Positions 3,961 to 64,000 of a stretch of 64,000 nt of DNA are shown here, one piece after another; the stretch's first letter is position 1; each line of letters begins with the position of its first letter. The notes beneath the pieces are model-generated. The model made no database searches. It had not been told where the DNA came from and saw only the letters and a list, made by a program, of their open reading frames with translations. The DNA is from Triglochin maritima (Eukaryota; Streptophyta; Magnoliopsida; Alismatales; Juncaginaceae), in NCBI GenBank assembly GCA_963682175.1, contig OY821787.1, forward strand, positions 17,400,501 to 17,464,500, written 5' to 3'. The position numbers were made by a program, and so were the translations under genes.

Positions 3961-3995
3961 CCGCCAATTGGCGGCCCAAGACCGCTGATTGGCGA
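3961..3995 (+). promoter_or_regulatory. in-phase palindrome pair in the A-family LTR
   Basis: CCGCCAATTGGCGG (3961-3974, perfect) is followed by CCGCTGATTGGCGA starting at 3982, 21 bp start to start, in otherwise AT-rich sequence about 120-155 bp upstream of the TATA box. The same arrangement recurs in every other A-family LTR that retains this region and in their leaders. Confidence 0.65.
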
Positions 3996-4117
3996 TCTAG
4001 ATTAGTCCGGATCTTCTGAGGTTTAGTCAGGTCATGTGTTAGGGTGTTTTATGTCTATTTTTAGTAGTGTATTAGTCCCATATCGGGGGATTGTCCCTGA
4101 TTGCCTTTTTCTTTGGC

Positions 4118-4126
4118 TATAAATAG
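4118..4126 (+). promoter_or_regulatory. TATA box of the solo LTR
   Basis: TATAAATAG sits in the middle of the LTR, at the expected end of U3. Transcription should start 25-35 bp downstream. The same motif is placed equivalently in all Athila-like LTRs here. Confidence 0.7.
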
Positions 4127-5183
4127 AACTCCTCCTCCTTTGTATTTACACATTGCTTGGTGGCATTCTCTCTACTGTGAATAAGCCTTGGAGCAAAAAC
4201 CCAAGGTGGAGAAGAGTGCTACTAGTAATGTGAGTCATTTAATAAAATAATTTATCATTGTTTTGTTCTCATGTTGTCTCTTTTTTATGCATGCTTAGCT
4301 TAGTCTTGTTTCTTTGATCTTAGGCTAAATTAGTTAGAATGTCTCCTTTCTTCTTTAGTTTATTGCTAGCATAATGTGTAGTTTGTAGATCCATCCCCTT
4401 TGGGGGGTGGAGATGATGTTCATATATATTGTGAAGTTTGTATGTTTGATGAATTTTTGATTGTGTAGACTTGCATGTTTTGTATGTTCATTGGGGTATT
4501 TTAATCATCAACATGTCGGGGAATTTTGATCGGTTTTGCTATAAGATCTAGACACTTCCCATGCTTAGTTTTCTCATGTTTATTGACTGAAATTTCCTGT
4601 TGAATATGCTACATGTTATTATGTGTTTGTATTTGTGTTTGCTTGCTTGATTGATTGAAGAAACTTTGTTTCGATGGGTTTTCCATAACATTTAGACACC
4701 TCCCATGCTTACCTCGTTCTTCACACGAGTTTATGGTTTTTGATTAGTCTTGTCATATCTTTAGACACTTCTCTTGCTGAGGCTAATCTTATGTTAATCA
4801 AGTAGTAATTGCCAATACGTTGTGCGAATGGATTGATAGGTTTTTCATCATCTTTAGACACTTTCTATGCATGAAGACACACACACGATACATACATATA
4901 TGCTTACATGCATCATTCATCACTTATTTCACGGCATATGTGCACACACCCCACTCCTTAGGGGTTTCTTTTTCTGATTTCCAATCTTTCGTGCTTTCTT
5001 TCGCATCTCGTACTTATTGGTTTAGTGTAGTTTAGCTTTTGTATTATCACATATTTTCTCCCTTTATTCGTCATCTGACTTCGATTATACAAGAGGTTGC
5101 TCACCTCCCTGCGGACGACCCGTACTTGTCTCGTCTTCACTGACAACTGTGCACTTGCGGTCTAAATTTAAAACAAACAAACA

Positions 5184-5629
5184 CGAATCTATCCCTCTCG
5201 GGTTGTGCGCGGATGCGTAGTGGTCATATTGAGCATTTTGGGAAAATGTATGCTCATACTCAGGCTTTTGGGAACTTCAGGAAATTCTCCGATAACATGA
5301 CCACTCAACCCACAACAATCATACAGTACGGCTACTGGAGCCAGTGGTGCACTCATGTCATCTACCACATGCATGAAAGAGGCCAAAGGTTCTTGTATTG
5401 TCTCAGTTTGTTGACCGACATTTGATCCAACATAACTACATGATGGTCTAGCAGTCGGTGTCTCTCTCATATTATCCCAATATGAAGATTGCACAGTCAT
5501 ACAATTAAGATTGTCCCTACCATACGAGGTATTTGTCTGAGCCACCCCAAGTTGTATGGCTCCGGAATACCAGGGAGAATTGTCCTGGTCCCAACAATGA
5601 CATGGATGGTCTCCCATGTAACCATCCAT
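5184..5629 (-). pseudogene. Athila-like Gag-like ORF, N-terminal remnant with decayed zinc knuckle (copy A2)
   Basis: The best ATG is at 5629-5627, opening with MDGYMGDHPCHCWDQDNS, nearly the start of the ORF at 51037. Unlike that ORF, this copy then contains VLYDCCGLSGHVIGEFPEV. It fits the CX2CX4HX4C zinc knuckle of plant Gag proteins with the first and last Cys replaced (Tyr, Phe). After it the frame shifts: the following nucleotides encode a block equivalent to AQYDHYASAYNP in another frame. No capsid domain is visible before the knuckle. The solo LTR at 3590-5183 separates it from its C-terminal part. Gag assignment is from the knuckle and the Athila-like block after it. Confidence 0.65.
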
Positions 5630-9222: not shown

Positions 9223-9227
9223 AAATG
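9223..9227. repeat. target-site duplication AAATG (left)
   Basis: AAATG at 9223-9227 is repeated at 17637-17641, exactly flanking the element. Confidence 0.9.
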
Positions 9228-9476
9228 TGTAACATCCTCGAAAGCGGAAGGAATTTAATTTTTTAATAAAACACAACACGAGGATATTACCAAAGAAAAA
9301 GGCCAACTGGTGCACCAACATATATACAATATATATCTGAGAGTTTACAAAAGTGTGATTACAACAAGAGATAAGGGAAATATACATGTAATCACTCGGA
9401 CCTCAAAACCGGGAAAGCAGGATCCGATCCCGAAAGCACCCCGCCTCAGTCACCACCTCCTAACGCTGCTCACGAC

Positions 9477-10733
9477 CTGACATAAAACATGAATATGCCT
9501 GAGTTTCCCGAGAGGAAACCCTGTATGCCAAACCTCTATAACAATAAATGAATAGACATTTAAGGCATGCATGATATGAAGTGCAAAAGCCAATCAACGT
9601 CTCACTGGGTCCCCGGGAACTCTCTCCCTACCACAGTAGACACCCAACAGTGACGGGTCTCATGGGTCCTCTAGCCCAGCCCTCACACACGTGCCCCAGG
9701 CACCTCAGCCGGAAACTCCCTCGGCGACAACACACGTGCCCCAGGCACCACGACCGGAAATATCCTCGGTCAACACACACATGTGCCCCAGGCACAGCCG
9801 GATTACTCTCAGGTCGGTATCCTCTGTACCGCTGCCATCTTGAGCTGTCCAGAAGACCACTCTCAGGCCGGCACCGTCACCCCTCTAGGGTCGGAGATCC
9901 GTTGCCATCTTGAGCTGGCCCCACACGCGAACCACCCTCAGGCCGGCACCGGTCACCCCACTAGGGCCGGAGATCCGTTGCCTTCTTGGGCTGGCCCGAC
10001 AACACCCGTGAACCACTCTCAGGCCGGCACCGGTCACCCCACTAGAGCCGGAGATCCGTTGCCATCTCGAGTTGGCTTCACAACACAAGAACACACAAAA
10101 ACCGTACCAAACGATCGAACGAAATCTCCCAACCGGTCGACCGAATCCTCTCAGCAGGACTGGCCCAACCAACAAAACTGTCAATCGGTCGAATGGCAAA
10201 GGGGTCCCGTTCGACCGAATTCGACCAGTAAAAACTCGTGTCACAGTAATATGCACCAACGGTCTAGCGACCCAAACTCACCGGTCGACCGAAAACGACC
10301 AGTAAAACTCCAAACTCAAGCGTAGAGCACCGGTCGACCGAAACCTCACACGGTCGAACCAACTTAAGTTATTTTTAATCGCCGGTTGAACGAGTCAGCT
10401 AGGCGGTCGACCGTTTGGATGGTCAATGCCCCCAACCGACATACAACAGTGCTTTCGGTCGACCGGCAAAGGGGTCTCGTTCGACCGAAAACACACAGAG
10501 CAAGATTCCCTTGATAAAACGTACCACCGGTCGACCACTCGAAGAGTATCGTTCGACCGGTGCAAGGGTTTCCGCCCAAAATTCTCTACAACCGGTCGAC
10601 TGAACCATGTCACCGGTCGACCGATTATAGTGCAGAACAATGCTGCACGGGTCCGACGATCCCTCCGGCCTACCGTCGACCACCCCAACACCCACCAAAG
10701 CATAAGTGAGCATCAAAGTAAAGCTTGACATAC
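9477..10733 (-). other. possible LTR-internal intron
   Basis: In element sense CTTCAAG|GTATGTCAAGC begins at 10733 and TTTATGTCAG|GTCGTGAGC ends at 9477, giving 1257 nt with good plant splice-site consensus. The equivalent pair in the related LTR at 22358-24119 is 1242 nt. Splicing itself is inferred, not shown. Confidence 0.4.
10112..10623 (-). promoter_or_regulatory. array of CGGTCGACCG-like palindrome pairs, 3' LTR
   Basis: Pair start positions are 10112/10134, 10186/10208, 10260/10282, 10331/10351, 10383/10404, 10456/10478, 10528/10550 and 10593/10614. Spacings are 22, 22, 22, 20, 21, 22, 22 and 21 bp. Perfect decamers are at 10134, 10282, 10331, 10404, 10456 and 10614; the others differ by 1-3 bases, often CGTTCGACCG or CGGTCGAACG. 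Confidence 0.7.
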
Positions 10734-11125
10734 CTTGAAGACTTGAAGAAGTCTTCGAAGACTCGACGACGAGCTTTTCTTCGCAAAACACCTCCTCTGG
10801 CGAAAACCAACCGATCAACGATCCTCTCCTCTCCGACGAACGTCCGAGCTTCACCTCGCCTTCCGAGACCCACCCCACGAGCACCTTCACAAGCCGGAGA
10901 TCAGATCAGAGAGAGGGAGAGAGTTTGAGCGGGTGAGAGAGAGAACGCGAGAGAGAGAGAGAGAGAATCACTCACCACTCCTTAAACCCTTCTCTTCCAA
11001 TCTCCACCCTTCATCTCATCTCATCCAAACCAAACCAATCTCAGCCCTCCATCATAATCCAACCAATTAAGCACCTAATCAAAGCCAAAACATGATTAGT
11101 CTTAAGAAGGATTAAGGATATTACA

Positions 11126-11142
11126 ATCCACCCTCCTTAAAA
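11126..11142 (-). other. polypurine tract of the chromovirus
   Basis: The minus strand reads TTTTAAGGAGGGTGGAT directly before the 3' LTR. Upstream is AATTTCGTGGACGAAATTC, a phrase also found, with a few changes, before the 3' LTR at 38182. Confidence 0.8.
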
Positions 11143-11159
11143 GAATTTCGTCCACGAAA

Positions 11160-14100
11160 TTAGGACCGAAGCTCACCAAACAATTCCGGGAACTCCTTCC
11201 GGACCTCTTCTTCAACTTCCCAAGTAGCCTCTCGCTCACTATGGTGCTGCCACCTGACCTTCACCATCGGATTGGTCCTCCTCCTGAGTTGGTGGTCCAT
11301 CCGATCCACGATCTCCACAGGTCTCTCCTCGAGAGACAAATCCTGACGGATCTCCGGAACCTCTAACTGAATCACGAGAGAAGGATCCGCTACGTACTTC
11401 CTCAACATCGAAACATGGAAGACGTCGTGAAGACCCGAAAACTGCGGCGGCAACGCAATCCTGTAGGCAACCTCCCCGATCTGATCGAGAATCTCAAACG
11501 GCCCGACGTACCTCGGACTGAGCTTCCCTTTCTTCCCGAACCTCATCACTCCTCGAGATGGTGAAATCTTCAGGAAAACGTGATCGCCTACCTTAAACAT
11601 CAACACTCGCCTACGCCGATCCGCGTAGCTCTTCTGCCTGCTCTGCGCTGTCGCTAATCTCTGCCTGATCACATCAACTTTCTCGGCACACATCTGCACA
11701 ATCTCAGGCCCGATCAGCTGTCTCTCGCCTACATCGCTCCAGCACACTGGCGATCTACAAGGTCTCCCGTACAAAGCCTCGTACGACGCCATTCCGATAC
11801 TCGAATGGTAACTGTTGTTGTAGGCGAACTCTATAAGCGGTAGATGCTCATCCCAGTGCCCTGCCCAATCCAACGCACAAGCTCTCAGCATATCCTCCAG
11901 AGTCTGGATCGTCCTCTCTGACTGCCCATCTGTCTGCGGGTGAAATGCTGTACTAAACTTCAACCGTGTCCCCAGAGCCTGCTGCAGACTTCCCCAAAAT
12001 CTGGAAGTAAACCTGGTGTCTCGATCAGATATAATACTAACTGGTACCCCATGCAAGCGAACTATCTCATCAATGTACAGCCTAGCCAGGTCCTCCAAGG
12101 GTAATGTGGTCCGGATTGCCAGAAAATGCGACGACTTGGTCAGTCGATCAACTATCACCCAAATCGCGTCATGAGATCTCTTCGTCCTCGGCAACCCGGT
12201 GACGAAATCCATCGTCACGTGCTCCCATTTCCACTCTGGCAAATCTATCCTCTGCATCGGTCCCGCGGGTCTCTGGTGCTCAATCTTCACCTGCTGACAA
12301 ACCAGACATCTGCCAACAAACTTCGCTATCTCAGTCTTCATCCCCTTCCACCAGAAATTCCTCTGAAGATCCTTGTACATCTTCGTGCTACCCGGGTGGA
12401 TGGAATAACAGGACCTGTGTGCCTCCTCCAAGATTTCCTTCTTCAGCTCTCCCCCATTGGGCACCCAGACTCGGCCCCTGAATCTCAGACCTCCGTCAAC
12501 TCCTATACTGAAATCTGATCCGTCTCTGGCAACCAACTGCAACAAGCTAGCTAAATCCTTGTCAGCCCTCTGAGCCTGGACAATACTCGTGACCATCTGA
12601 GGCTCCACTCTCAGTCCAGCTATCACTGCGCCCTCAGAGTCCTTGGAGAATGGCTTCCACTCTGACAAAGACTCGGGCAGCTTCCACTCCTGAATACACA
12701 AACCAGCAGCTGAAATTTCCACCTTCCTACTCAAAGCATCTGCGACTGTATTCGCCTTCCCCGGATGGTAGGATATGGTGAAATCATAGTCCTTGATCAG
12801 CTCAAGCCACCTACGCTGCCTCATATTCAGCTCCTTCTGCGAAAACAGATACTTCAGACTCTGGTGGTCCGTGAAAACCTCGAACTTCTCCCCGTACAGA
12901 TAATGACGCCAGGTTTTCAGTGCGTGAACCACTGCCGCCAACTCCAAATCGTGAGTGGGGTAGTTCCTCTCGTGTACTTTCAACTGCCTCGACGTATAAG
13001 CAACCACCTGACCGTGCTGCATCAGTACACAACCCAACCCCACACCAGAAGCGTCACTATAAATCACAAAACCTCCACTGCCACTAGGAAGAGTCAGAAC
13101 TGGAGCAGTCGTCAACCGACTCTTCAGTTCCTGAAAACTGTCCTCGCACTTCTGGGACCAAACAAACTTCACTCCCTTCTGCGTCAGTGCCGTCAAAGGT
13201 GAAGCAAGCCTCGAGAAGTCCTTGATGAATCGACGATAATAACCCGCCAATCCAACAAAGCTCCTGATCTCCGTCACACTCGTCGGTGCTCTCCACTGAG
13301 TCACTGCCTCCACCTTCGCTGGATCCATTGATATCCCAGCCCCAGACACAATGTTACCAAGAAAAGCGACACTGTTCAACCAGAACTCGCACTTCGAAAA
13401 CTTGGCGAACAATTGATGATCTCTCAGAATGCCAAGCACGATCCGCAAGTGCTCCCTGTGCTGCTCTATGTCCGGTGAATAAATCAAGATGTCGTCTACA
13501 AAGACCACCACGAATCGGTCGAGGTACTGACTGAACGTCCTGTTCATCAGATCCATGAAAGCTGCAGGCCCGTTCGTCAACCCGAACGGCATCACTAGAA
13601 ACTCAAAGTGCCCGTACCTCATCCGAAAAGATGTCTTCTGAACATCTGCCTCTCTGATCCTCAACTGATGATACCCGGATCGCAAATCAATCTTCGAAAA
13701 TATCTTCGCTGACTGCAGCTGGTCAAACAGGTCCTCAATCCTGGGTAAAGGATATTGATTCCTCACAGTAACCTTGTTCAGCATCATGTAGTCGATGCAC
13801 ATCCTCAATGAGCCATCTTTCTTCTTCACACAGAGTACCGAAGCTCCCCAAGGCGAGACACTAGGGCGGATAAACCCAGTATCCAACAAATCCTGCAGCT
13901 GCTTCTTCAGCTTAGCTAACTCAGCCGGTGTCATCCTATAAGGAGCCTTCGACTGTGGAGTGGTCCCAGCCACCAAATCAATACCGAACTCCAACTCCCT
14001 GTGAGGCGGCAACCCAGAAACATCTGATAACACATCAACAAACTCCTGGACAATCTCTATGTCCTCCAACGATCTCATCTCTGGATCTGGAACAACCAAG

Positions 14101-14975
14101 GTAGCCACGAAAGCTCTGCAGCCCTGCTCAAGCAGCTTCCGTGCCCTCACTGCTGACACTACGACCCGACCACCACGGTCCTTCCTTCCTCTGATCAGCA
14201 AATCAGGTAGCCCATTCCTCGGGATCAGAATCTTCTTCTCCCGGCACAACACTCGAACATCATACTGGGATAGCCAATCCATCCCCAGTATAACATCGAA
14301 ATCCTCCATCGGCAACAAGATCAGGTCAGCAGGAAACTCCTGATCTTCCGAAACAATCGTGGCACCGGGGAGGAAGCTCCCCACAGTGCTTACCAAACCC
14401 AAGGGTGTGCTGACTTCCAACGTGGCAGTCAACATCGCAGGGGTACGGCCCCACACACTAGCAAATCTCTCAGAAATGAACGAATGTGTGGCCCCACAAT
14501 CAAACAACACTCTGGCTACAAACCCAGCAATCAAGAGCGTACCTTCCACCACAGTGCTGGCGTCCTTCGCCTCCTCTGCCTGAATGGTGAATACCCGTCC
14601 GGTCCTCTGTCCCTGCTGAGGTGGTGAAAAGGGATGACGGCCTCCACCTCTACCTGCTACCGGAGGTCTCACTCGAGAACTGGACTCGCCTGCTCCGCTC
14701 CTGCAGTCTCTGGCATAATGGCCTTGCTGGCCACAACTGAAACAAACTCCAGGACGGCTCCCACACTCACGACCTGGGTGGGCTCTGCCACACTTCCTGC
14801 ACGGCTCAGGCTGGCGTGCACCACTCCCCTCAATCTGGGGCCTCTTGCCCGGATTTCCTGTCATTGGAGCTCCTGGACGTCCACTGCTCTTCCCCTGAGG
14901 CCTCCTGGACTCTGCATAGTTTTCCTGATAGTCCTGGTCAATGAGAGTCGCGAACTTCACCGCATCTGCTAAGGT
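11160..14975 (-). CDS. gag C-terminus and pol polyprotein (protease, RT, RNase H, integrase, chromodomain)
   Basis: Open from just after the TAG at 14978-14976 to the stop at 11160; it is the in-frame continuation of gag, not a separate gene. Residues are numbered with the Val codon at 14960 as 1. Zinc knuckle [14 protein letters not shown] 73-86; protease FDCGATHSF with Asp154, but Cys155 where Ser/Thr is usual; reverse transcriptase with Asp425 and FVDDIL (Asp489, Asp490); RNase H with Asp636, Glu673, Asp698, Asp741; integrase HHCC finger (His848, His855, Cys885, Cys888) and DD35E core Asp918, Asp979, Glu1015; GPF motif near 1152; chromodomain about 1210-1262. It would copy and integrate the element; chromodomains can direct integration to particular chromatin. 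No frameshift was seen. Confidence 0.93.
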
Positions 14976-15608
14976 CTAAGGCATGCTGTAAGTCACACGG
15001 GTACGGAGCTGCTTCCGAAGCCCCCGTATAAACTTCCTTGCCCTCTGAATTGGGGTCACCCAGAACTCCGGACAATAACGCTCCAAAGCGTTGAACTTCC
15101 GGGCGTAGTCCGCCAGTGTCATCTCACCCTGCTCGAGGCTCATGAACTCCTCTCTCTTCCCGTCCCTGACATGCTCTGGGAAGTACTGCTCATTGAATTC
15201 CCCGAGGAACTCATCCCAACTGACATCTGTCCTGCCCGGAAACACCACTGCAGCCGTGGTTCTCCACCAGTTGGACGCCTCGCCGCCCAACACATACGTG
15301 GCCAATCCCACCATCCTCTTTGGTGGACTCCCAATCGCCTGGAAGATCTCCTGGATCTTAAAAACCCAGTCCTCGGCAGCCTCAACATCTCCTCTGCCGT
15401 CAAAAGTAGGTGGGTGTTGGCGCATAAACCGGTCGTGCACCGCCCCTACCCCTGTCGTCTCCTCTCTGCCAGACTGACAATCTAAAAGAACGCCCAGCCT
15501 CTGCACAGTGTCGAAGAGCATCCAGCGCTCCTCCGCCCAATCCATGGCGCCAGTCTCCTCACTGGTACTCGGACCACGTGGGGGAAGTCTCTTGCGTCTC
15601 GGAGGCAT
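14976..15608 (-). CDS. Gag N-terminal (capsid) part, ended by an in-frame TAG
   Basis: It starts at ATG 15608-15606 (MPPRRKRLPPRG) and ends after 210 residues at TAG (14978-14976). Residues ~70-185 match the plant retrotransposon Gag capsid domain: QHPPTFDGRGD, NWWRT, YFPEHVRDGKREEF and LEQGEMTLADYARKF. The next codons continue in the same frame into the zinc knuckle and pol, so the TAG is most simply a CAG-to-TAG nonsense change. The context TAG-ACC lacks the CAR-YYA pattern of known leaky stops. The start lies about 115 bp after the primer site. Gag would form the particle that packages element RNA. Confidence 0.85.
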   Translation of the reverse strand: MPPRRKRLPPRGPSTSEETGAMDWAEERWMLFDTVQRLGVLLDCQSGREETTGVGAVHDRFMRQHPPTFDGRGDVEAAEDWVFKIQEIFQAIGSPPKRMVGLATYVLGGEASNWWRTTAAVVFPGRTDVSWDEFLGEFNEQYFPEHVRDGKREEFMSLEQGEMTLADYARKFNALERYCPEFWVTPIQRARKFIRGLRKQLRTRVTYSMP

Positions 15609-15723
15609 CTACACACGAGACAACAAAACTGAAAATCAGATGATTATGGATGTATGCTCTAAAATGCAACTATCTAAAAGACATCTAAGGTGGCTCCTTT
15701 GGACAAGTGCGTCGGAACTGACT

Positions 15724-15735
15724 GCTCTGATACCA
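15724..15735 (-). other. primer-binding site, initiator-Met tRNA
   Basis: The minus strand reads TGGTATCAGAGC three bases after the 5' LTR, the standard plant tRNA-iMet primer site. Confidence 0.9.
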
Positions 15736-15738
15736 ATT

Positions 15739-17636
15739 TGTAACATCCTCGAAAGCGGAAGGAATTTAAATTTTTAATAAAACACAACACAAGGATATTA
15801 CCAAAGAAAAATGCCAACTGTTGCACCAACATATATACAATATATATCTGAGAGTTTACAAAAGTGTGATTACAACAAGAGATAAGGGAAATATACATGT
15901 AATCACTCGGACCTCAAAACCGGGAAAGCAGGATCCGATCCCGAAAGCACCCCGCCTCAGTCACCACCTCCTAACGCTGCTCACGACCTGACATAAAACA
16001 TGAATATGCCTGAGTTTCCCGAGAGGAAACCCCGTATGCCAAACCTCTATAACAATAAATGAATAGACATCTAAGGCATGCATGATATGAAGTGCAAAAG
16101 CCAATCAACGTCTCACTGGGTCCTCGGGAACTCTCTCCCTACCACAGTAGACACCAAACAGTGATGGGTCTCATGGGTCCTCTAGCCCAGCCCTCACACA
16201 CGTGCCCCAGGCACCTCAGCCGGAAACTCCCTCGGCGACAACACACGTGCCCCAGGCACCACGACGGGAAATATCCTCGGTCAACACACACATGTGCCCC
16301 AGGCACCGCAGGATTACTCTCAGGTCGGTATCCTCTGTACCGCTGCCATCTTGAGCTGTCCAGAAGACCACTCTCAGGCCGACACCGTCACCCCTCTAGG
16401 GTCGGAGATCCGTTGCCATCTTGAGCTGGCCCCACACGCGAACCACCCTCAGGCCGGCACCGGTCACCCGACTAGGGCCGGAGATCCGTTGCCTTCTTGG
16501 GCTGGCCCGACAACACCCGTGAACCACTCTCAGGCCGGCACCGGTCACCCCACTAGGGCCAGAGATCCGTTGTCATCTCGAGCTGGCTTCACAACACAAG
16601 AACACACAAAAACCGTACCAAACGGTCGAACGAAATCTCCCAACCGGTCGACCGAATCCTCTCAGCAGGACTGGCCCAACCAACAAAACTGTCAATCGGT
16701 CGAACGGCAAAGGGGTCCCGTTCGACCGAATTCGACCAGTAAAAACTCGTGCCACAGTAATATGCACCAACGGTCGAACGACCCAAACTCACTGGTCGAC
16801 CGAAAACGACCAGTAAAACTCCAAACTCAAGCGTAGAGCACCGGTCAACCGAAACCTCACACGGTCGAACCAACTTAAGTTATTTTTAATCGCCGGTCGA
16901 ACGAGTCAACTAGGCGGTCGACCGTTTGGATGGTCAACGCCCCCAACCGACATAAAACAGTGCTTTCGGTCGACCGGCAAAGGGGTCCCGTTCGACCAAA
17001 AACACACAGAGCAAGATTCCCTCGATAAAAGGTACCACCGGTCGACCACTCGAAGAGTATCGTTCGACCGGTGCAAGGGTTTCCGCCCAAAATTCTCTAC
17101 AACCGGTCGACCGAACCATGCCACCAGTCGACCGATTATAGTGCAGAACGCTGCTGCACGGGTCCGACGAGCGCTCCGGCCTACCGTCGACCACCCCAAC
17201 ACCCACCAAAGCATAAGTGAGCATCAAAGTAAAGCTTGACATACCTTGAAGACTTGAAGAAGTCTTGGAAGACTCGACGGCGAGCTTTACTTCGCAAAAC
17301 ACCTCCTCCGGCGAAAACCAACCGATCAACGATCCTCTCCTCTCCGGCGAACGTCCGAGCTTCACCTCACCTTCCGAGACCCACCCCACGAGCACCTTCA
17401 CAAGCCGGAGATCAGATCAGAGAGAGGGAGAGAGTTTGAGCGGGTGAGAGAGAGAACGTGAGAGAGAGAGAGAGAGAATCACTCACCACTCCTTAAACCC
17501 TTCTCTTCCAATCTCCACCCTTCATCTCATCTCATCCAAACCAAACCAATCTCAGCCCTCCATCATAATCCAACCAATTAAGCACCTAATCAAAGCCAAA
17601 ACATGATTAGTCTTAAGAAGGATTAAGGATATTAAA
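15739..17636 (-). repeat. 5' LTR of the chromovirus
   Basis: Same length (1898 bp) and content as 9228-11125, including the GA microsatellite (17422-17478) and the palindrome-pair array (about 16623-17134, offset +6511). Its first bases in element sense are TTTAATATCC instead of TGTAATATCC, damage after insertion that would impair a new round of integration. Confidence 0.95.
16623..17134 (-). promoter_or_regulatory. array of CGGTCGACCG-like palindrome pairs, 5' LTR
   Basis: Same pairs as in the 3' LTR at offset +6511, for example perfect decamers at 16645 and 16967. A few members differ by single bases between the two LTRs, e.g. CGGTTGAACG versus CGGTCGAACG at 16894. Confidence 0.65.
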
Positions 17637-21303: not shown

Positions 21304-22652
21304 AATAACCCCACACTTACCTTTTGCTAGTTCCGAGCGAAAGAAAGAAAGAGAAAAATAAAAGAAATGAGAAACATACAAAAAATAGGGAAATCCTAAC
21401 TCACTTTCGTAGGAATCACAATTGCACTTTGCACGTGCAACAAGCCGTTAAACCATTTTTTCGCTAAGGAGGATGAGTGTTGTCTCCTAAGGGTTTTCAG
21501 CGGATATACCCACAAAATCCGAACATTGATGTATTATTCCACCTAGCAACTCGACTCGTCGGACCTACTTTTGTCGATCATTGGACACGGTAATCCTACG
21601 GGCCGACTCTACATATGTATCCAGTCCACACACCTAGCCTAGGGAACCATTTGTGCAAGTTAATTAAGGACTTAAGTGAAAGACATGGGCAACCTTAACA
21701 TCCTCTAGTGATATAGAGTGTAACAAAACTTCCTCAGACCTGATTTCCCGAGTGATAAGAGCCATGCAACAAAAGAGAACACCATACTCACTTATTTTCT
21801 TATCTACACATGAAGCAAAACCCCTACACTTAAGGTTTCACAACAGGAGTTTACGGGTCCCTGACTACACCAAACTTCCTTATACTATCAGACACAAATT
21901 ATTTTACTCACTAGGTTCAGGGTGGACTTCTTTATTTATTTAAGTAATAAAATAGTATGATTACTCTTCCATCGAGGGAAAATCGGGGTGCACCCTTACG
22001 ACTAGATAAGACCTAAAGTCAGTGTACTAGATATCCTAATGCATCACGTTCAAGTTAATTTTGGGAGCTTCCTTTTACTTTGACTCTCAACGGTTTTGCA
22101 CCTGCTAAACACATGCAAAACCCACAAAACATTTTTCTTTCACAAACACATGAAGATTTTGAAAGAAATTGAAAATTTAAAGTACTAAGCAAGGAAAATA
22201 AAGCAAGTCACCCAAGGATCATGGTATAGCAGATATATCAATGTAAAGTGCAGCACACTATCATGACCCTAACAATGCCAACAAAAGCATACAAAAGAAA
22301 ATAAAAGAAAAGACTCGACTATATACACACGTAAAACACCCCCCCACACACACTTACTGTTATATCCTAATCCTTGATTAGTGGGTTAATTGTGTTTAAG
22401 TGGTTGGTCAGGGTATTTGGGGGTGCAAACCCTTCTTTTCTTCTCATTATCCTCTCTAACCTCACTCTCTAACCTTCTCTCTCTCTCAAAGCCATCTGAG
22501 CATCGTTGACGTGTTGTGATCGGCGAAGAAGGAATAGGTCGGTGAAGTTGACAGAGTTGGGTGATCGTGATCGGGAAGAGATTTGCCGGAGAAACGCTTG
22601 CGGTGAGGAGGTGATCGTTGTGGGTCTTCAAAGGTTTCTTCAAGCCTTCAAG

Positions 22653-23894
22653 GTATGTCAAGCTTCTCTTTAATACTCACCCGAGGTGTGCGCGTGGTCG
22701 ATTTAGTCGATGGTGGCTGTTAGGCTCGTCAGAGGTTAAAGTGCAGCAGGTTTCTGCTGAATAACGGTTGACTGACGTATGCCTTGGTCGACCGATGCTA
22801 GTGTAATTACGGGTTTCAGCCTAGCACCGGTCGAATAAAGCCTTTGGGCGATCGACCAGTTGTGTGATTTGGGCAAGCTCTCTTGTTCTTCGGTTGAATG
22901 GGTCCCCTTTGCCGTTCGACCGGTTGCACTTTGAGTGAGTTGGTTGGGGCATAGACCACCTAAACGGTCAACCGCCTTGATGACAAGTTCGACTGATTTC
23001 ACCTGTAGCAAGTTAGTTGGGGACTAGACATTCTAAATGGTCGACCGCCTATATGATTTTTTCCACCAATAGCTTCTGTTAACTTAAAGTCTTTTCGACC
23101 AGTTCTTGCTCTATTCGACCGGTTTTGGACTTGAGAAAAACGTTGGAAACTTCTATTTTCGGTAGACCTTGTCCATTTTGTCATTCGACCGATGGGATGT
23201 TTATTTTTAAAGATACTTGGGGCGTAGACCTTCAAAACGGTCGACCGCCTATGACCATCTATTCGACCGATTGGTCATTTTGTTAGTTGAACCCGGGAGT
23301 TGACTATCCAAACGGTCAACCGCCCATGTCTTTTGGTTCGACCATTGTATGTTGGATTTCGTTCGAGCGGCTAGGTGACAGTTGATCCATGTATGTTTCT
23401 TGAGGGAGCCGGTCGACCGGTATGCTTGGTTCGGTTGACCGTTGTTGCTTTGTTTTGTGTTTTGTTGTTTGTGTGATCGGCTTTGAAGGCAATGGGTTCA
23501 CCGGCCCTTTTGGGGCAATGGAAAGAACAGGTCGGCTGGATAGCAATCAGGTGGTGGCTCTACGGAGCGAGTGGTGGCTCTATGGAGTGATTCTGGGCTC
23601 TAGAGCAACTGTCCTTGTGAGGCGGGGTTTGTTGGCCAACGATGTTTCAGCGGGTGCCTTGTGTGCACCTGTGGTGTGGGTGATGGGTGAGAGGACCTTG
23701 GAGTCTTATTGTGGATCGTGTCTGCTGTGGTTGTGAGAGAGGTCCCTGATGCCCAGTATCGACTATGATGTTTTATATCTATTGCATTTTGTATCATGTT
23801 ATGCTTGTTGTAGTCAAGTTCATATATGTGTTAGGGTTTGGCATACATGGTTTCCTTATGGAAACTCAGACATAGTTTTATGTTTGCATTTCAG
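22653..23894 (+). other. possible LTR-internal intron
   Basis: TTCAAG|GTATGTCAAG at 22653 and GCATTTCAG|GTCGTAAGC ending 23894 mirror the sites in the 9228-17636 LTRs (1242 versus 1257 nt). The segment between is poorly conserved, whereas sequence around both sites is conserved. Confidence 0.4.
22765..23441 (+). promoter_or_regulatory. array of CGGTCGACCG-like palindrome pairs
   Basis: Pair starts 22765/22785, 22828/22849, 22891/22913, 22965/22986, 23238/23260, 23313/23335 and 23410/23432, spacings 20-22 bp. Members are more degenerate than in the chromovirus LTR. Confidence 0.6.
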
Positions 23895-24429
23895 GTCGTA
23901 AGCGGCATTAGAAGGTGGTGACCGTGGAGGAGCACATCACAGTAGCTGAATTCTTAGGTAGTTTATGATTACATGTGTTATATATACTCGTCGTTGACAT
24001 CTTTGATGTAATCATACTTTTGACAAATTCTATTGTATTCTGGTGCAGCGGTCCCGCTCTTTTGGATTGTAATTCTATTGTTATTTGTTTTAAATTTTCC
24101 ATTGTTTCTAGACGTTACACTTACTTTATGCATTGTCCTCAAGTAATGTACATATGATACTACATGGATTTATGCATGAAAAATAAAAGATCTCACCAAC
24201 GTGAAGTGCAAAAGGAAGTTCATGGTTTTGTGGATGGACATATACTCGAATTCCCGAAAACCTGTGAGATACTTAAGAAGGGAGACAAATACGTGAAACA
24301 AATGTGGCCCAAATACACTAGGGTTGGGGCCAACAACAACCGATGCTCACTTCTTCTTCTTTTTCTTGTTTTTTTCTTTTTTTTTAAACTAACAAAGTAT
24401 GTAGAAAATGAAAGGAATGATCACGTCAA

Positions 24430-26504: not shown

Positions 26505-27391
26505 TGTAGGATTTCGTGTCCTATACTTGTGTATATTTTTATAAACTTAAGAAGCATTTAGGTTCGATTTTCATACAATAATTTTCATGTAGAAAACATA
26601 GACTATACATTTTAATATATGTATCCTACAAAAATATTAAATTGTATAGAAGAAAATCATACCCAAAAGGTACTCAAAAACCTTTTCGTAGATCTAGAGT
26701 CGCGTTACATTTGGATTAACTCGGAATTCCTCCAAGTGTTCACCAAACTCTAAACAAGATTTAGAGAGAAATGAGCTAGCCAATCAATCTCTAATTCAAG
26801 GCTAGAATCGAGCTAATTACCCATTTTTGCTCCTGAGAATTTAATCTCTCAAACAATCAACTAACAAGAAAATTTTCGGATGGTTTGCTGAAGAAATATG
26901 GAGAGAAGAATTTTGCATTCATATATTAACAATGAGGAGAGGAGGGTCCTATTTATAGGACTTCCTCAAAACCTATTAATGTGAAACCCACTTGCACATG
27001 ATTCCTTGTTAATAGCTCCTCTAATCTAATAATTTTTCGACACGTAATCATCTTTTAACCTCCTCTAACCGAATTGGAATAAATCCAACCCATGATCAAA
27101 GAAATCCTCTTATTAATTCAAGCAAACCTTTGCAAAAATGTTTTCAAAAACTAGAAATTATTGTTCACCGGTCGACCGTTTTGCAAAAAAACGTTCAACC
27201 GTTTTGCACTATTTTTTGCCTTTTGCCAAATTTTGGATCAATATCCAACAAAATTTGATCTTCGGGATTTTAGAAAATTTATATAATTATAAACCACATT
27301 ATAATATGAAACATATTATCATATATAATGTCAAACATTACACCTCATAATATATTTAAATCTCATATAAATTTATTTATTATTCTAACCA
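26505..27391 (-). repeat. LTR of family C
   Basis: In element sense it ends GACACGAAATCCTACA at 26505 and seems to start TGGTTAGAATAATAAAT at 27391, matching 61470-62673 in the opposite orientation though shorter. A TATA box (TATAAATAG, minus) lies at 26949-26957. CGGTCGACCG (about 27172) and CGTTCAACCG (about 27191) are the only palindrome members left. Flanking 5-mers GTAAG and TGTAT do not match, and it joins two unrelated fragments, so this is probably a rearranged copy. Confidence 0.65.
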
Positions 27392-28409
27392 TGTATTTGG
27401 GACTTCACGAAATCATGGTACTCGATACCGATGATCCCTCGACCTTTCAAGAAGTAATAGAAAGGAAGACTCCAAACTATGGCTTAGTTCCATGGAATCC
27501 GAAATACAATCCATGTATGACAATCAAGTATGGGACTTGGTTGACCTTCGTTAAGGAAAGAAAATCGTTCAAAATAAATGAGTTTTTAGGAGGAAGATGG
27601 ACAAGGATGGGAACTTGAAAACCTACAAAGCGAGGCTTGTAGTGAAGGGTTTCACTCAAAGTCAAGGAATTGATTATGATGAAACTTCTTCACGGGTTGT
27701 CATGTTCAAGTCTATTCGGATTTTGCTAGTTATTGCCGCATTTCATGATTGTGAAATATGGCAAATGGATGTCAAAACAACATTCCTTAACGGGAACTTG
27801 GAGGACGATGTGTACATGGTACAACCTTAACGTTTTGAAGATCCAAAGAATAGAAAGAAAGTATGCAAGCTTAAACAATCCATTTATGGATTGAAGCAAG
27901 CATCGACGAGTTGGAACAAACGCTTTGACGAAGAAGTCAAAAAAGATTAGCTTCGTCCAAAGTAAGGAAAAACCTTGTATAAGAAGATCAGTGAGAGCCA
28001 CATAATGTTTCTGATCTTATATGTCGAGGACATACTCCTCATGGGAAATCATATCCCTTTGCTAGACCAAACGAGAAGTTCATTGAAATCTGCATTTTCA
28101 ATGAAAGCCATGGGTGAGGCTCAATACATCTTGGGAATCAAGATATATTGAGACAAAGCCCATAGACTCAATTGCCTAAGTCAACGTACGTACAACGACA
28201 AGGTCTTGGAGAGGTTCAGTATGAACAAATCCAAATATGGCAATGTGCCAATGACTGTAGGTGTGCAACTCAAGAAGTCTCAACGTGCGATATCATGTAA
28301 GGACTTAGAGCACATGACATATATTCCTTATGCTTCAGCAATAGGATTGATCATTTACGTGATGACTTGCACAAGACCCGATGTCTCGTATGCTTTAAGC
28401 GTTACAAGT
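27392..28409 (+). pseudogene. Ty1/copia pol remnant, left part (RT)
   Basis: Plus-strand blocks: KARLVVKGFTQSQGIDYDE, MDVKTTFLNGNLEDDVYMVQ, KLKQSIYGLKQASTSWNKRF, LILYVEDILLMGN (catalytic YVDD box as YVED), EAQYILGIKIY and CTRPDVSYALSVTS. In-frame stops follow VQP, after IKIY and elsewhere. It is interrupted between the codons for VTS and RHQS by the solo LTR at 28410-31259 and continues at 31265. Same family as 19540-21040. Confidence 0.85.
28405..28409. repeat. target-site duplication CAAGT
   Basis: CAAGT at 28405-28409 is repeated at 31260-31264. Removing one copy and the LTR restores the reading VTSRHQS known from the sister copia copy. Confidence 0.9.
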
Positions 28410-49762: not shown

Positions 49763-51036
49763 GGCGACGAAGATTTTGTTTATTTTTAGTGATTTCGATT
49801 TTTTCTGTTTATCGTGTGCGCGATCTAACTACTTGGATTTGCGTTTCAGGAGACAACAGAGTGTGCGGCGAAATCTGGGCACATTCAGAGCAAGAAGGGC
49901 GGCGAAATCGCCGCATCTCAAGCACAACCTGCGGTGGATCCACCGCACATCTGAAGCATCTGGGCTTCAATTTTTTCTGGGGTTGTCTCCATCTCTGGGT
50001 GGACGCGTAGAGCATCTGGGAAATTTCGAGAGCGGGCGACGAACCCGTCTGAGCATTGCGGAGGTAACTTTTCTTGCCTTTCTCATAAAATCTTAATTTT
50101 TGAAATGTTCCTTTTCGTAGAACTGCGCGTGTTAGGGCAAAAATACCATAATTGGCAATAATTCAACTCTGACCTAAAAATTGGGAAAATTAGAAGGACT
50201 TAGTGCATGCATCATATAGTGTTTTGTTTGCATTATTCTTGCTAAATTCTTGCAAAGAAATTTTTTTTGTTGAAGAGTGCTGGAGGCAAGGTACGTGCGC
50301 GGTTTTTATCGATTGCATTTAAGCATATAATCTAGTTTGCATACAACCTTGCAATTGCCCCCCACTAAACAGACCAATGTTTGACTATCTTTGCTAGATT
50401 TAAGTTAAACTATCTTAAGGGCAACTCCGTAGGAAAAGATACGGTGGGGATTTCATCACCCTTCCGTGGCCCACAAATCACAATCCTAAAGTGTCACCCA
50501 AGCCTTAAAATTAAAATCAATTAGACATTGGCCCCTAAGGACTCGGACTTAATTAAGGAGAAGATTGGTTTGACTTGCTATGACTTGAAGCTGATCGAAT
50601 TTGATTTGGTGTCTAGAAAGTGTTTTTGTGTTGACGTAAGTCTTCCAAGCGAAGTGGTTGTCTAATTGGCACCGACTCTGTCGGAAGCGCCCCCATTAGC
50701 TGTACACTGCCTTGCCAAGTTGGTTTGATTAGTGAGGGAGGTGAATCAAGCGAGCCAATTCGACTCAACCAGTTAGGAGTCGTCTAGAATTAGGCTCCCT
50801 TAAGTCTAGGATTGTTTGAACCGTGCTTGTTTAGGAAACTTCTGACCAACCCTCTCATCTATCTCTTAGAGTTAAGTTTCCCCTCTCCTCTGAGTCATCT
50901 TCTTCTCACCTTCTTCTATGTTATAGTCTCCTCTCCTTTACACTCTCTGGTAGCATTTTTAGGGTCGAGTCGAGCACTTTTTACGAGTTTAGCCTCGTGG
51001 TGGTGAGAGTGGTCGACTCTAGAGTTCTTTGTGAAG
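49763..51036 (+). other. untranslated leader of copy B
   Basis: 1.27 kb without credible ORF, similar to the leaders of A2 and D. It contains GCGGCGAAATCGCCGC (49899-49914) and the perfect palindrome TGCGGTGGATCCACCGCA (49930-49947). The hairpin-like CACCGACTCTGTCGGAAGC lies near 50670. Confidence 0.75.
49899..49946 (+). promoter_or_regulatory. palindrome pair with 32-bp spacing in the B leader
   Basis: GCGGCGAAATCGCCGC at 49899 and GCGGTGGATCCACCGC at 49931. Same spacing as in both LTRs of this element, within unrelated flanking sequence. Confidence 0.65.
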
Positions 51037-57804: not shown

Positions 57805-59287
57805 TGTGGGATCGTAAGGGTCTCTAATTCTAATCACTTTTAAGCTAATTACCTACTTGTTTAATCGATCAAGTATATGCATCAGAATTAAAACAAATAA
57901 ACAAGTAAAAGAGGAAATAAGCAAACCACAATGAGACGGGGGATTTTTATATAGGTTCGTCACCCCACCCGGGTCCTAGTCCTCTCTTGCTAGCTCCGCT
58001 CGGATCATCGATATCCGCTCACAACTTCACTAACCACTCCCCATTTCAGGCCGGGAGAGAACGCGTTTACAACACAAGCACCGTGAACACCCTCGCTAGC
58101 TTGACTTTTTTCCTCTCATAATCCGAGAGGGAACACTTCGGGCTTTCACTGAAATCCTTGCTTCTTGAACAACAATTGAGTGGGACAACACTCTCTAAAT
58201 CTTGAGCACACTTTGAGTATGATTTGGCTATGATCAAATGTGTGGAATTTAGGCTTAGAGTGTAGGATTGGGTAATTTGGCGCTTGGGAGTTTAATGTAA
58301 TGGACAAATAGTAGTGGGAGAGTTGTGTTAAAATATGTTTTACAACTCTATTAATAAGCTCCAAGACAATTATAGTTGTTGGGGATGAATTGGGTAAAGG
58401 TTGTGTAAAATACACAAATTAGAAATCTGCAGGACCCAATTCAGAATAAAATCGGTCGACCGAATCGGGTATGTCGGTCGACCGGTTGATCAAATATGGC
58501 TTTGACTTAAGTTCACATAAGTGATTGGTCGAACGCCATATAGGGATTGGTCGACCGATCATAACGGGCTCTATGGGGTTGACAAACACAAGTTAGAATT
58601 AGGTCGACCGAAACAAGGTCCACGGTCGACCGAAAACCGACAGGCGGTTTGGGTTTGTAGAGACATCTTAAGTTCGTTCGACCGAACAAGGTCCTCGGTC
58701 GACCGATAGGAAAAAGTATTTTTGGGGTATTTGAAAAAATACGAATACGATCGTTAGGTATAAAACAACAAAACAAACGGTCAGAAAATTGTGTTAACTC
58801 GGTCGACCGAAAAGGTCTGGACGGTCGAACAAAACCAAGCAGTAAAACACTAACAGGGTAATTGATCACTCGGTCGACCGAACGGTCTGTTGCGGTCGAC
58901 CGAATGTGGGCAGATAGTTCAGGTTAAGTGTTAAGTGTTTAGTGTTTTCCGGTCTAGGTTTGGGTGATCTATTGAAGTCCAAATTATATGAAATTTTGTG
59001 TGTAACTTATATAAGAAACATAGTGTGTGGCTGAGTAGTTTTTAGCTCAAGTATGCTCATTTACACAATGTTCCTAAGACTCAAAAGAAATGCAAATTAC
59101 ATGTCTTCAATTGAGCTTCATTACATGTCTTGACTTGAATCCTTTCTTTGTTGAGTCTTGATCACCTGTAGAAGTTAGTACAAAACAATATATATGCGAT
59201 GCAATATGTGTTCTACTCTACATTGATTATAATTAAGATTAGGTTGATTAAATCATCAAAACATAGATTAAGGCCAAAAAGCCAACA
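57805..59287 (-). mobile_element. solo LTR of family F inside hAT remnants
   Basis: Minus orientation: starts TGTTGGCTTTTTGGCC at 59287 and ends CTTACGATCCCACA at 57805, 1483 bp, flanked by GTTGT (57800-57804 and 59288-59292). The LTR at 63419 begins the same way in plus orientation. It carries five CGGTCGACCG pairs. Confidence 0.88.
58453..58902 (-). promoter_or_regulatory. array of CGGTCGACCG palindrome pairs in the F LTR
   Basis: Pair starts 58453/58475, 58601/58623, 58675/58696, 58800/58822 and 58871/58893: spacings 22, 22, 21, 22, 22. Most members are perfect decamers. Confidence 0.7.
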
Positions 59288-60780: not shown

Positions 60781-61354
60781 AGTATATAAAAGAGGAAGAG
60801 ATTACTTTTATATATTGAATAGACCTAACAAGTAAAACATTATGGAATTGTGTTTCGTGTCATTAATGTTTTACTGTGTCTTGGATCCTAGGATATGAGA
60901 CTTATATCTTTTCACTCAAGAAATGCTTAATTTGATTATTGTCAAAAGCTATCAATGAGTATAGTGATAAAGACAATAGTTGGTTGAACATGACTTGTGC
61001 TGGAAAAGATAGCTAGTCAAACGATTATCGTTGCCCCTCTTTATTGAGTGATGATATTGATTGGCCCCTTGATAAAGCAAAATTATAATGTGCACAATGT
61101 AACTTGAGTTAAGTTACATCGTTATAATTAGCTTAAAGAGATCAAGAAATGAATATAATACAAAGGTGACACATTTCTACTTTGTATATATTCTTAATAT
61201 CACGAGGCAAGGGACGGACACAAGTGGTGCACTTACATCACTAAATGGATCGTGTTTAGTTCGAGTGGAACAAAGCCATCTTTGCTAATTGGGTAACTAT
61301 AATGTGTAGCTAGATACAGCTTATAGTTTGGGATATTAAGTGTTTAATATCGCT
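60781..61354 (+). repeat. 578-bp tandem duplication, unit 2
   Basis: Nearly identical to unit 1, with a few single-base differences (for example GATAAAGACAATAG versus GATAAAGGCAATAG). It ends at ATATCGCT, after which the copies part. Confidence 0.9.
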
Positions 61355-61469
61355 CACACCACAAAACTGGGAAACAAGAACCTTGATTTTGAGTTCATAT
61401 GATGTGTCGGGTTTCATGTGAAAAAGGAACACATGTGGTGAATGAATAAAATCAATATGTCATGAGAAT

Positions 61470-62673
61470 TGACATAATTAGAATCATAATAAATTCATAT
61501 GAGGTGTATATATTATGGGGTATAATAATTTAATATTAAATAGGATAATATATTACATAAGATATGAATTTGCTAAAAACCCCCAAAAGATCAAATTTTG
61601 TTGGAAATAAATCCAAAATTTGACAAAGGCAAAATCGGGGTCAAACACGGTAAACCATTTAGGGTTCGGTCGACCGAGGTATCTTCGGAACGGTCAACCA
61701 AATGGGGAATGGGTAAACACAATTGGTTGACCGAAATTGTCTGGATTGCCTGGACAATTGAGTTCGGTCAACCGAGCGTGAACGGTCAACCGAGAGAAAA
61801 TATACAAGAGATATCTTTGGATATTTTCGGTAGACCAAAGGTGACACGGTCGTCCGTTGAATATTCGCCAGGAGAAATTTTGGTGGGTCAACGGTCGACC
61901 GGAGCAAGACGCGGATCGTTCGAATTTTTTCAGAGAATTTTTCTCATGCATATTCGGTCGACCGTCTAGCTCACGGTCATCCGAACATGTGTCAAAACCG
62001 AACGGTTTGGTTGACCGAGAAGAATTCTCGGTTAACTGAACAACACGATTTTTGCCTGAATTATTAAGAGAATAATTAGATCATGGGTTGGATTAATACA
62101 AGATTTAATTAAATGTTTTGAGGATGCTTATGCGGCAATTTGAGATTAATTTTAGGAGAGAATAAGCAAGAGATCATGACTAAAGAATAGTTCTTGGTAA
62201 GGATGTTTTGGGAGCCTGTAAAAGGACCCCTTATCCTACTTGTTTATGTTAATGCAAAAAAAAAATCTCTCATTAATCTCTCCCTTAATCACCACGAAAA
62301 TCTCTTAATAGTTTTAAGTTTTGGAGATAGAAACCTCAGGAGCTTAAAGATGGGTTATTAGATAGATTCTAAGCCTAATTTGAGATTGATTGGTTAGCTC
62401 CTTTCTCCCTAATCTTGTTTAGAGTTTGGTGAACACTTGGAGGCGTATCAGCGGGCGATTCGACGAGCAACGGAACTCCAGATCTTCTTAAAGGTTTAAG
62501 AGAACCTTTGGGTATGATCATCTATCCTTTGTTTATTTTAATATGCGTAGGAATGCATGATATTAGAATAAACAAATACATGTACGTAAAATCAATAAAA
62601 ATATGAAATCGATCTTGTTTGTTTGTATTAAAATTTTAAAATATATACATACATGGGGACACGAAATCCTACA
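61470..62673 (+). repeat. 5' LTR of family C
   Basis: It ends GGGACACGAAATCCTACA, followed by TGGTATCAGAGT, an iMet-type primer site. The start near TGACATAATTAGAATC is less certain; the minus-oriented copy at 26505-27391 aligns from there. It has CGGTCGACCG-like pairs between 61667 and 62040. Length about 1.2 kb. Confidence 0.75.
61667..62040 (+). promoter_or_regulatory. looser CGGTCGACCG-like pairs in the C LTR
   Basis: Pairs at 61667/61691, 61766/61783, 61828/61847, 61892/61918 and 61955/61974, spacings 17-26 bp. Spacing and sequence are more relaxed than in the chromovirus and F LTRs. Confidence 0.5.
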
Positions 62674-63418
62674 GTGGTATCAGAGTATTTAGTTCATATT
62701 TTCAATGATTAGACTATATAAGTAATTTTAGTTTACCATCTACAATCAAAACAATTCATGTTCTATGTCTTCTTCGAGTTTTCCGATAGTTTTGTTGATT
62801 TAATTCTAATTAATTCTTTTGATAGTTTTAAATGAAATACATCATGTCAATGTTAAAATTAAAATTTAGACTTATGTCTAATATATATAATTTTCGTTTT
62901 TAATTAAATGATTATTTTATAAGGAATCGACAAAACGAAAAAGGCATATGTTTATCTTTCCTCAAAAAAAATATTCTTGGAAATTGGATAAAGTGCGGTT
63001 CAAATGTTTTATGTTTTGAACTATGGATGCATAAAATCATTTTTAATGAGTTTCAAATGATTTTAGAATTGTTTGATTTAGAGATGCATGATAAACTAAA
63101 TCAAGTAATATATAGTATATGTACATGCGTTGCTCGAGTTCTCTAATGCAGAGATATGTGAGTTTGTATGTTCCGATGAAGCCATGTGTGAATGAATGAA
63201 TAAATGTGTATGTTATTATTATTCAATCACAGGGGCTTATGTATATGTGAAAGCCAAATTTCTATTTCTATGTATATGCATGCATATGAGAGAGTTTTAC
63301 ATATGACTTACACTAGACAATTTTTAAAATTGAGAGATGCATGTTTATATTTTTGCAATATCAACATCCACGGTGCAACAGGAAGACGCTGAAAAATCGC
63401 AAGGATCAAGGACGCAGG
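62674..63418 (+). mobile_element. start of the internal region of the family C element
   Basis: AT-rich leader after the primer site without a credible ORF. It is cut by the family F LTR at 63419, so the element's superfamily cannot be read from this window. Confidence 0.55.
62675..62686 (+). other. primer-binding site, initiator-Met type
   Basis: TGGTATCAGAGT one base after the LTR; last base differs from TGGTATCAGAGC. Confidence 0.8.
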
Positions 63419-64000
63419 TGTTGGCTTTTTGGCCTTAATCTATGTTTTGATGTTTTAATCAACCTAATCTTAATTATAATCATGTAGAGTAGCACACATA
63501 TTGCATTGCATATATATTGCTTTGTGCTAACCTCTACAGGTGATCAAGACTCAAGGAAGAAAGGAAATCAAGTCAATACATGTAATCAAGCTCATTTGAA
63601 GACATGTATTTTGTATTTCTTTGAGTCTTTAGGAACCTTGTGTAATTGAGCATACATGAGCTAAAAACTACTCAACCATACACTAGGTTCCCTATAGAAG
63701 TCACACACAAAATTTCACATAATTTGGACTTCAATAGATCATCCAAACTAGAACTGGAAAACACCTAAACAAAACTTGAACTGTTTGGACCAAAACGGTC
63801 GATCATTGAAACCTTTTCGTTCGACCGTTCACACGTTTCACATGACCGTTTGTTTTGTCGTATTATACCCAACGGTCGTATTCGTATTTTTTCCAAATAC
63901 CCCAAAATTACCAAACATCCGGTCGACCGAAACTTTCCTAACGGTCGACCGAACCAACACAATTTGGTCTCCCAGAAGTGCCTGGACTTATTCGGTCGAC
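63419..64000 (+). repeat. family F LTR, 5' part, running off the window
   Basis: It starts TGTTGGCTTTTTGGCC and matches the sense strand of 57805-59287. Palindrome pairs at 63796/63818 and 63920/63942 are each 22 bp apart. The right end is outside the window. Confidence 0.85.

Follow-up and report, generated by a model that had tools for sequence, protein, structure and literature searches.

In the genome of Triglochin maritima, the long terminal repeats (LTRs) of a Ty3/gypsy chromovirus and of Ty1/copia retrotransposons carry arrays of a single 10-bp, CpG-rich palindrome, CGGTCGACCG. Judged from sequence, there is about an even chance that these arrays are enhancer platforms for a dimeric DNA-binding protein of the host. 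The stretch analysed, hereafter the window, comprises 64 kb of contig C19 (positions 17,400,501–17,464,500) in a genome of 1.06 Gb and 167 contigs. It consists largely of nested LTR elements, and within the best 120 of 7,990 listed reverse transcriptase (RT) proteins, every named relative comes from a flowering plant. The original prediction for this DNA held that short palindromes stand in pairs at a nearly fixed distance in almost every repeat family, each family having a palindrome of its own.

Abundance of the palindrome

The window contains 25 perfect copies of CGGTCGACCG, where a first-order model expects 0.008. That one word supplies 25 of the 115 10-bp palindromes present, the runner-up reaching 3, so the palindrome does not simply change with the family as had been proposed. 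With up to two mismatches allowed there are 87 matches, 79 of them within 9.8 kb of LTR. Sites of this type sit in both LTRs of the chromovirus (C), in a solo LTR distantly related to it (C2), in two LTRs of a family F (F and F2), in a Ty1/copia element (G), and in a G-related LTR fragment (Table 1).

Genome-wide, 359,535 perfect copies (about one per 3 kb) compare with 90 of the reversed word, which served as control, and 76,550 perfect pairs at a distance of 20–24 bp compare with none. The first 100 pairs listed, which all lie in the opening 1 Mb of contig C1, include 62 spaced by 22 bp and 21 spaced by 21 bp. Nineteen unselected 10-kb stretches hold 30 copies, found in 5 of the 19, and CGGTCGACCG is their commonest palindrome, AT runs aside. 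Loci L001–L039, taken for site counts only, have at most three perfect copies each. The observed/expected ratio of CpG, computed without an island caller, is 1.11–2.03 in the six arrays measured, compared with 0.17–0.76 in the rest of each LTR and 0.72 in the window. Another palindrome, ACTTAAGT, is found 8 times in 19 arrays from the window and fetched loci, some of them related or duplicate, at 1.02/kb versus 0.048/kb elsewhere. The tRNA and Rfam scans were empty. Protein searches with the reading frames of the F array gave no match, and those with the frames of the C array gave one relative, on a 2.5-kb contig of jgi source.

Spacing of the sites

The sites are arranged as pairs of mostly 22 bp that recur at a step near 74 bp in C, F, and J, the last being a Ty1/copia element from contig C1. 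Successive gaps in C are 22, 52, 22, 52, 22, 49, 20, 32, 21, 52, 22, 50, 22, 43, 21, and 52 bp, and in F 22, 51, 22, 53, 22, 52, 21, 104, 22, 49, and 22 bp. Both LTRs of J carry a near-regular 22/51 array, with gaps of 22, 50, 22, 52, 50, 23, 51, 22, 31, and 21 bp in one and 22, 50, 22, 51, 22, 51, 23, 51, 22, and 31 bp in the other. The gaps of G are irregular (18–24, 33–34, 41–45, and 63 bp), which means that the palindrome is kept there and the 22/50–53 spacing is not.

Gaps of 20–22 bp number 8 of 16 in C (1.2 expected) and 6 of 11 in F (0.7 expected), counts that none of 5,000 random placements reaches in either case, and 3 of 12 in C2 at up to two mismatches (P 0.016). Pooling 13 arrays, several of which are related to one another, gives 164 gaps. 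Relative to random placement, 36 fall at 22 bp (3.8 expected), 14 at 21 bp (3.8 expected), 27 at 50–53 bp (5.6 expected), and 3 at 25–30 bp (18.7 expected). Perfect CpG palindromes of at least 8 bp at 20–22 bp, of whatever sequence, occur 4 times in the window with 0.12 expected, a count reached in 0 of 200 shuffles. The predicted fixed-distance pairs of the chromovirus LTRs, the solo LTR at 22358, and family F are thus real, and it is CGGTCGACCG that carries them.

Steps of 22 and 52 bp amount to about 2.1 and 5 turns of the helix. Coherence near 10.5 bp exceeds random placement (P<0.05) in 7 of the 13 arrays, namely those of C, F, J, G, one member of family I, one of family H, and the copy at locus L050. 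The idea that both sites of a pair face the same side of the helix holds to this extent; outside these LTRs no phase is seen. Shuffling the order of gaps mostly does equally well (P 0.28 for C, 0.39 for F, and 0.15 or 0.04 for G, depending on threshold), so the phase contributes little that the gap lengths do not already give.

Within C, C2, or F, the 12-bp spacers inside pairs resemble one another no more than their shuffled versions do (P 0.10, 0.67, and 0.37; five spacers each). The distance is therefore kept where the letters of the spacer are not, and recent tandem duplication was rejected as the sole source of the spacing, although spacers between the pairs of C2 do resemble one another to some degree (P 0.015). 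An asymmetry between half-sites was also set aside. Pooled without G, mismatches number 38 in inner and 15 in outer half-sites (240 each; P 0.001, by pair P 0.004), with outer versus inner counts of 4 versus 11 in C, 6 versus 22 in C2, and 0 versus 3 in F2. The asymmetry was not used because F (5 versus 2) and G (12 versus 5) run in the opposite direction.

Conservation of the sites

Related arrays were compared in eight combinations, a site being any match in the first of the two sequences with no more than one mismatch. Letters are kept at 102/110 in sites versus 237/380 in spacers between C and the L050 copy, and at 89/110 versus 226/380 between C and C2. For the copies of I the counts are 105/110 versus 375/528 and, reciprocally, 136/160 versus 385/514. 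The H group gives 98/110 versus 228/282, 88/110 versus 236/415, and 91/110 versus 215/282. In the C, I, and H groups, the sites thus outlast their spacers though they are rich in CpG, which is mutable here.

Elements carrying the arrays

C is a plant chromovirus of the Ty3/gypsy superfamily, and hence not a Sirevirus, which would belong to Ty1/copia. Its pol pieces match protease, RT, RNase H, integrase, and a chromodomain, giving the order gag-protease-RT-RNase H-integrase, and of the 4,613 bases between the LTRs, 4,443 belong to the gag and pol frames. The primer-binding site (PBS), at ~15726–15737, is presumably of the tRNA-Met type. Tandem repeats of 45 bp and 81 bp adjoin the array in both LTRs (9684–10086 and 16195–16597).

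G is assigned to Ty1/copia by its proteins (copia-type gag and RVT_2). The sequence preceding both of its LTRs is alike (59930–62673 and, at the fetched locus L067, 5338–7531), which suggests that G is organized in tandem as LTR-internal-LTR-internal-LTR; an F solo LTR sits in its leader. Beside the G LTR lies a direct tandem duplication of 574 bp (60203–60776 and 60781–61354, 97.9% identical). J, at 126281–131989 of contig C1 (loci L046, L068, and L069), is likewise Ty1/copia, with copia-type gag, pre-integrase, integrase, and RVT_2; its LTRs are short (~840 bp) and 91.6% alike. In C, G, and J, the array is present in both LTRs of the element. Family F, unassigned as to superfamily, is represented by two solo LTRs, F and F2. 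An array at locus L053 was considered as part of a neighbouring copia element, a view rejected because it has its own ends and a TAAAC repeat and is a separate solo LTR.

Table 1. Coordinates of array-bearing elements and of other palindrome pairs in the window.
Feature	Position	Strand	Details
3′ LTR of chromovirus C	9228..11125	-	TGTAAT...TTACA ends; target duplication AAATG at 9223-9227
CGGTCGACCG array, C 3′ LTR	10112..10682	.	17 sites at ≤2 mismatches, mostly 22/50-52 bp spacing
Internal region of C	11126..15738	-	gag 14979-15608, pol 11163-14975 (pol scanned in three pieces)
5′ LTR of C	15739..17636	-	48 differences/1898 bp from 3′ LTR; target duplication AAATG at 17637-17641
CGGTCGACCG array, C 5′ LTR	16623..17193	.	
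Solo LTR C2, distant relative of C	22358..24119	+	target duplication CTTAC both sides
CGGTCGACCG-like array of C2	22765..23441	.	13 sites at ≤2 mismatches
G-related LTR fragment	26505..27425 (far end approximate)	-	perfect and 2-mismatch site at 27169 and 27192
Solo LTR of family F	57805..59287	-	target duplication GTTGT both sides
CGGTCGACCG array of F	58453..58902	.	12 sites, mostly 22/49-53 bp spacing
Second F LTR (F2), solo, inside G leader	63419..64000, on to ~L067 727	+	target duplication GCAGG both sides
CGGTCGACCG pairs of F2	63796..63951	.	two 22-bp pairs within window
LTR of Ty1/copia element G	61402..62673 (start approximate)	+	PBS TGGTATCAGAG at 62675; next LTR L067 6261-7531, 93.8%
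CGGTCGACCG-like array of G	61667..62017	.	11 sites at ≤2 mismatches, irregular spacing
Element B, just past left LTR	49899..49947	.	palindromes centred 32 bp apart (7/8, 9/9)
Element B, LTR palindromes	47644/47676, 54175/54207		weaker, 32 bp apart
Athila-like LTR pair at 21 bp	3961..3995	.	second member weak; relatives 7741-7775, ~31899-31936 (21-bp tandem repeat)

Palindrome pairs outside the arrays

A grammar spanning the window with family-specific palindromes was rejected, given that one palindrome is shared and the other pairs are mostly single, weak, and unphased. For the Athila-like families A and D, the large retrotransposon derivative (LARD), and the satellite, the letters reported are real, but there is mostly one pair per family copy and its second member is often poor (4/7 paired letters at 3982, 4/7 at 43002, and 3–4/5 in the LARD); the satellite has three sites per family copy rather than one pair. 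Among the palindromes originally cited, CCGCCAATTGGCGG and TCCGCCACTAGCGGA occur once each, and GCGGCGATTCCGCCGC and GTCCCGCGCGGGAC have no exact occurrence in the window. The 32-bp pairs ascribed to element B are present in its LTRs and past the left one, but the LTR copies are weak (4–5/8). An excess at 32 bp is unclear for perfect palindromes, since 3 pairs of at least 8 bp (1.08 expected) are reached in 18 of 200 shuffles and the single pair of at least 10 bp in 15 of 200.

With the array LTRs and extra copies masked, 29 imperfect CpG palindrome pairs lie 15–60 bp apart, compared with a mean of 12.3 and a maximum of 28 in 40 shuffles; a 10.5-bp phase is absent from these 29 (mean cosine 0.02). 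Outside the array LTRs, stricter criteria (arms of 7, at most one mismatch) speak for the original prediction, yielding 3 pairs at 20–22 bp (0.08 expected) and 2 at 31–33 bp (0.05 expected). Neither class is reached in 60 shuffles, and 3 of the 5 pairs come from one place, 7747–7790.

A satellite with a unit of ~372 bp (44680–47144 and 54887–56713) is apparently split by LTR element B (47145–54885). An Athila-like LTR at 48051–49433 in turn breaks up the left LTR of B. An open frame of 444 residues at 51007–52338 has no Pfam match.

Relation to Sirevirus repeat boxes

The kind of motif is already known from the palindromic LTR boxes of Sireviruses, and the belief that nothing similar had been described for plant LTR elements was mistaken. 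Palindromic repeat boxes, all but one with a CGG-CCG core, are described for Sirevirus LTRs (Bousios et al. 2010, PMC2829016), and the box listed for Vitis in Table 3 of that paper is exactly CGGTCGACCG, in 10 copies in the 3′ LTR. The letters GGTCGACC appear in this paper and also in one on a soybean copia element (PMC6712407). The arrays reported here resemble the boxes in their many palindromic, CpG-rich CGG-CCG copies, which in Sireviruses predominantly occupy the upper half of the LTR. They differ in belonging also to a Ty3/gypsy chromovirus and to several families of one genome, whereas PMC2829016 reports the boxes as specific to Sireviruses and absent from classic Ty1/copia elements. 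They also have spacings of 22 and 50–53 bp, and the description of the boxes in that source gives no fixed spacing. As far as the literature searched shows, three points are new: CGGTCGACCG is present, within a single genome, in a Ty3/gypsy chromovirus as well as in further families; it reaches ~360,000 copies; and it shows the 22/50–53 spacing.

Sirevirus boxes are further characterized by at least 8 copies of a CGG-CCG palindrome, and C, F, G, and J have 11–17 sites per LTR at up to two mismatches; the CpG island that covers Sirevirus clusters has its counterpart in the CpG ratios given above. The first site at this threshold lies 444 bp into the LTR in C, 408 in C2, 386 in F, ~266 in G (LTR start approximate), and ~55 in J, where Sirevirus clusters start at 200–400. 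The arrays of C and C2 exceed 500 bp, compared with Sirevirus cluster lengths of 300–500 bp. The Sirevirus polypurine tract, AGGGGGAG, was not found for G within L067 5200–6300 or window positions 60000–61420. J has AGGTGGAG-AT-TG before its 3′ LTR, one letter off AGGGGGAG with the AT/TG attachment site.

A 2023 study of maize (PMC10760457) found the Sirevirus palindrome to be also the top motif of structured regions in Helitrons. The parallel with maize lies in clusters within the LTR regulatory region and in sharing across element types; the palindrome is a different one, and the host response reported there is small RNA (PMC10760457).

Proposed mechanism

A palindrome repeated at even spacing through an LTR suggests dimers bound side by side, and paired sites for a dimeric DNA-binding protein remain the best reading of these sequences. 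Each palindrome would bind one dimer, and two dimers about two helical turns apart would cooperate. The array would lie within the unique 3′ (U3) part of the LTR and drive transcription. Because C has no coding room for a factor of its own, a host protein is the simplest reader, and the element-encoded factor also envisaged at the outset is unlikely for this element. Family-specific addresses are contradicted for the strong cases, since families without clear LTR similarity use the same palindrome. Different families may have gained or retained the site on account of a host factor that any of them can use, and G may be a family that kept it in a looser layout.

Heat-responsive LTRs of the ONSEN type contain a site for a host transcription factor, in the form of defined heat-shock sites in few copies. 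The arrays would resemble them in using a host-factor site, and are unlike them in being long and regularly paired. The word TTGACC occurs 6 times in the G array, 3 times in that of C2, once in C, and not in F; we take it to be the WRKY W-box and a site centre altered by deamination, and treat it as a lead.

A bolder version is offered tentatively. Ty3/gypsy and Ty1/copia elements would have taken up separately the paired-palindrome code of one host protein, the ~360,000 sites would form a transposon regulon with a shared switch, and the 22/52-bp grammar would be the footprint of a multimer.

Alternatives and evidence against an enhancer platform

With sites masked and both strands scored, the six comparisons among the LTRs of C, F, G, and J all stay at or below the top score of 150 shuffles. 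These sequences make separate acquisition of the arrays by the families likely. The alternative, possible if rather doubtful, is a single ancestral U3 module passed on by template switching or recombination, with the 22/52 spacing inherited and not selected.

Several observations weigh against enhancer arrays of separate origin, and those on descent are the reason why a passed-on module stays in consideration. C, C2, H, and I share LTR similarity, so their arrays are partly related by descent, and the LTRs of F and J match at 73.6% across 110 bp of array, sites included. The masked C–J score is reached by 4 of 150 shuffles and the C–G score by 12 of 150, and both lie just above all of 20 one-strand shuffles (29 versus a maximum of 24, and 27 versus a maximum of 25), in a run that gives C and C2, for comparison, a score of 120. 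Spacers between pairs are slightly more alike in C and F than when shuffled (0.296 versus 0.258, P 0.004), a tendency also seen within C2, and spacers inside pairs are weakly alike in C2 and F (P 0.02). The module is opposed by the masked comparisons, by the lack of significant alikeness in the in-pair spacers of C and F (P 0.07) and the between-pair spacers of C2 and F (P 0.61), and by the different layout of G. It would still need selection for its sites to outlast its own spacers.

Other points concern function. Sites of G are no better kept than spacers (34/60 versus 138/238), and helical phase is no better than chance in the remaining 6 of 13 arrays. In Sireviruses a TATA box follows the cluster at short distance; a search for TATA[AT]A close behind the C, C2, F, and G arrays finds none, weaker TATA variants not being scored. 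Between the two LTRs of C, CpG bases differ at 9/100 in sites and 16/163 outside, and non-CpG bases at 2/80 and 21/1,555. Site CpGs have changed as often as other CpGs since insertion, so there is no sign of site protection in C; germline CpG methylation is the inferred cause of the decay. Retention of sites together with decay after insertion would fit selection acting on element lineages, with a fixed copy under no visible protection.

That the arrays act as RNA, each 22-bp pair forming a hairpin with a 10-bp stem and a 12-nt loop for small-RNA silencing or packaging, is unlikely. Single-stranded C and F arrays do fold much better than shuffled sequence (z −6.8 with 20 shuffles and −8.4 with 100), and in maize small RNAs map in excess to the palindrome clusters of Sirevirus LTRs (Bousios 2016, cited in PMC10760457; PMC5311732). 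However, strong folding is automatic when one self-complementary word is repeated, and members of a pair match each other no better than they match members of other pairs (P 0.84, 0.90, 0.92, 1.00, 0.50, and 0.92 in six sets). Selection for RNA pairing between pair members was rejected on this lack of co-variation.

Targets of a transposon-encoded anti-silencing protein, as VANC is for VANDAL elements, would share the logic of short motifs densely repeated in non-coding element DNA, and VANC6 also affects an unrelated element that carries its motif (PMC5735166). The idea is very improbable here, given that C encodes gag and pol alone, that the CpGs of its sites decay like others, and that VANC motifs are described as family-specific and directional, those of VANC21 lying in the same orientation, whereas CGGTCGACCG sites are palindromic and cross superfamilies (PMC5735166).

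Implications

Different LTR retrotransposon superfamilies of one genome can share a class of motif that had been ascribed to Sireviruses alone, with a spacing rule that is measurable. The decay of arrays through CpG loss could help to date when copies cease being renewed. The site and its spacing are now specific enough for isolating the factor that reads them. If one host factor reads CGGTCGACCG, it may activate a large share of this plant's transposons together, or mark them together for silencing.

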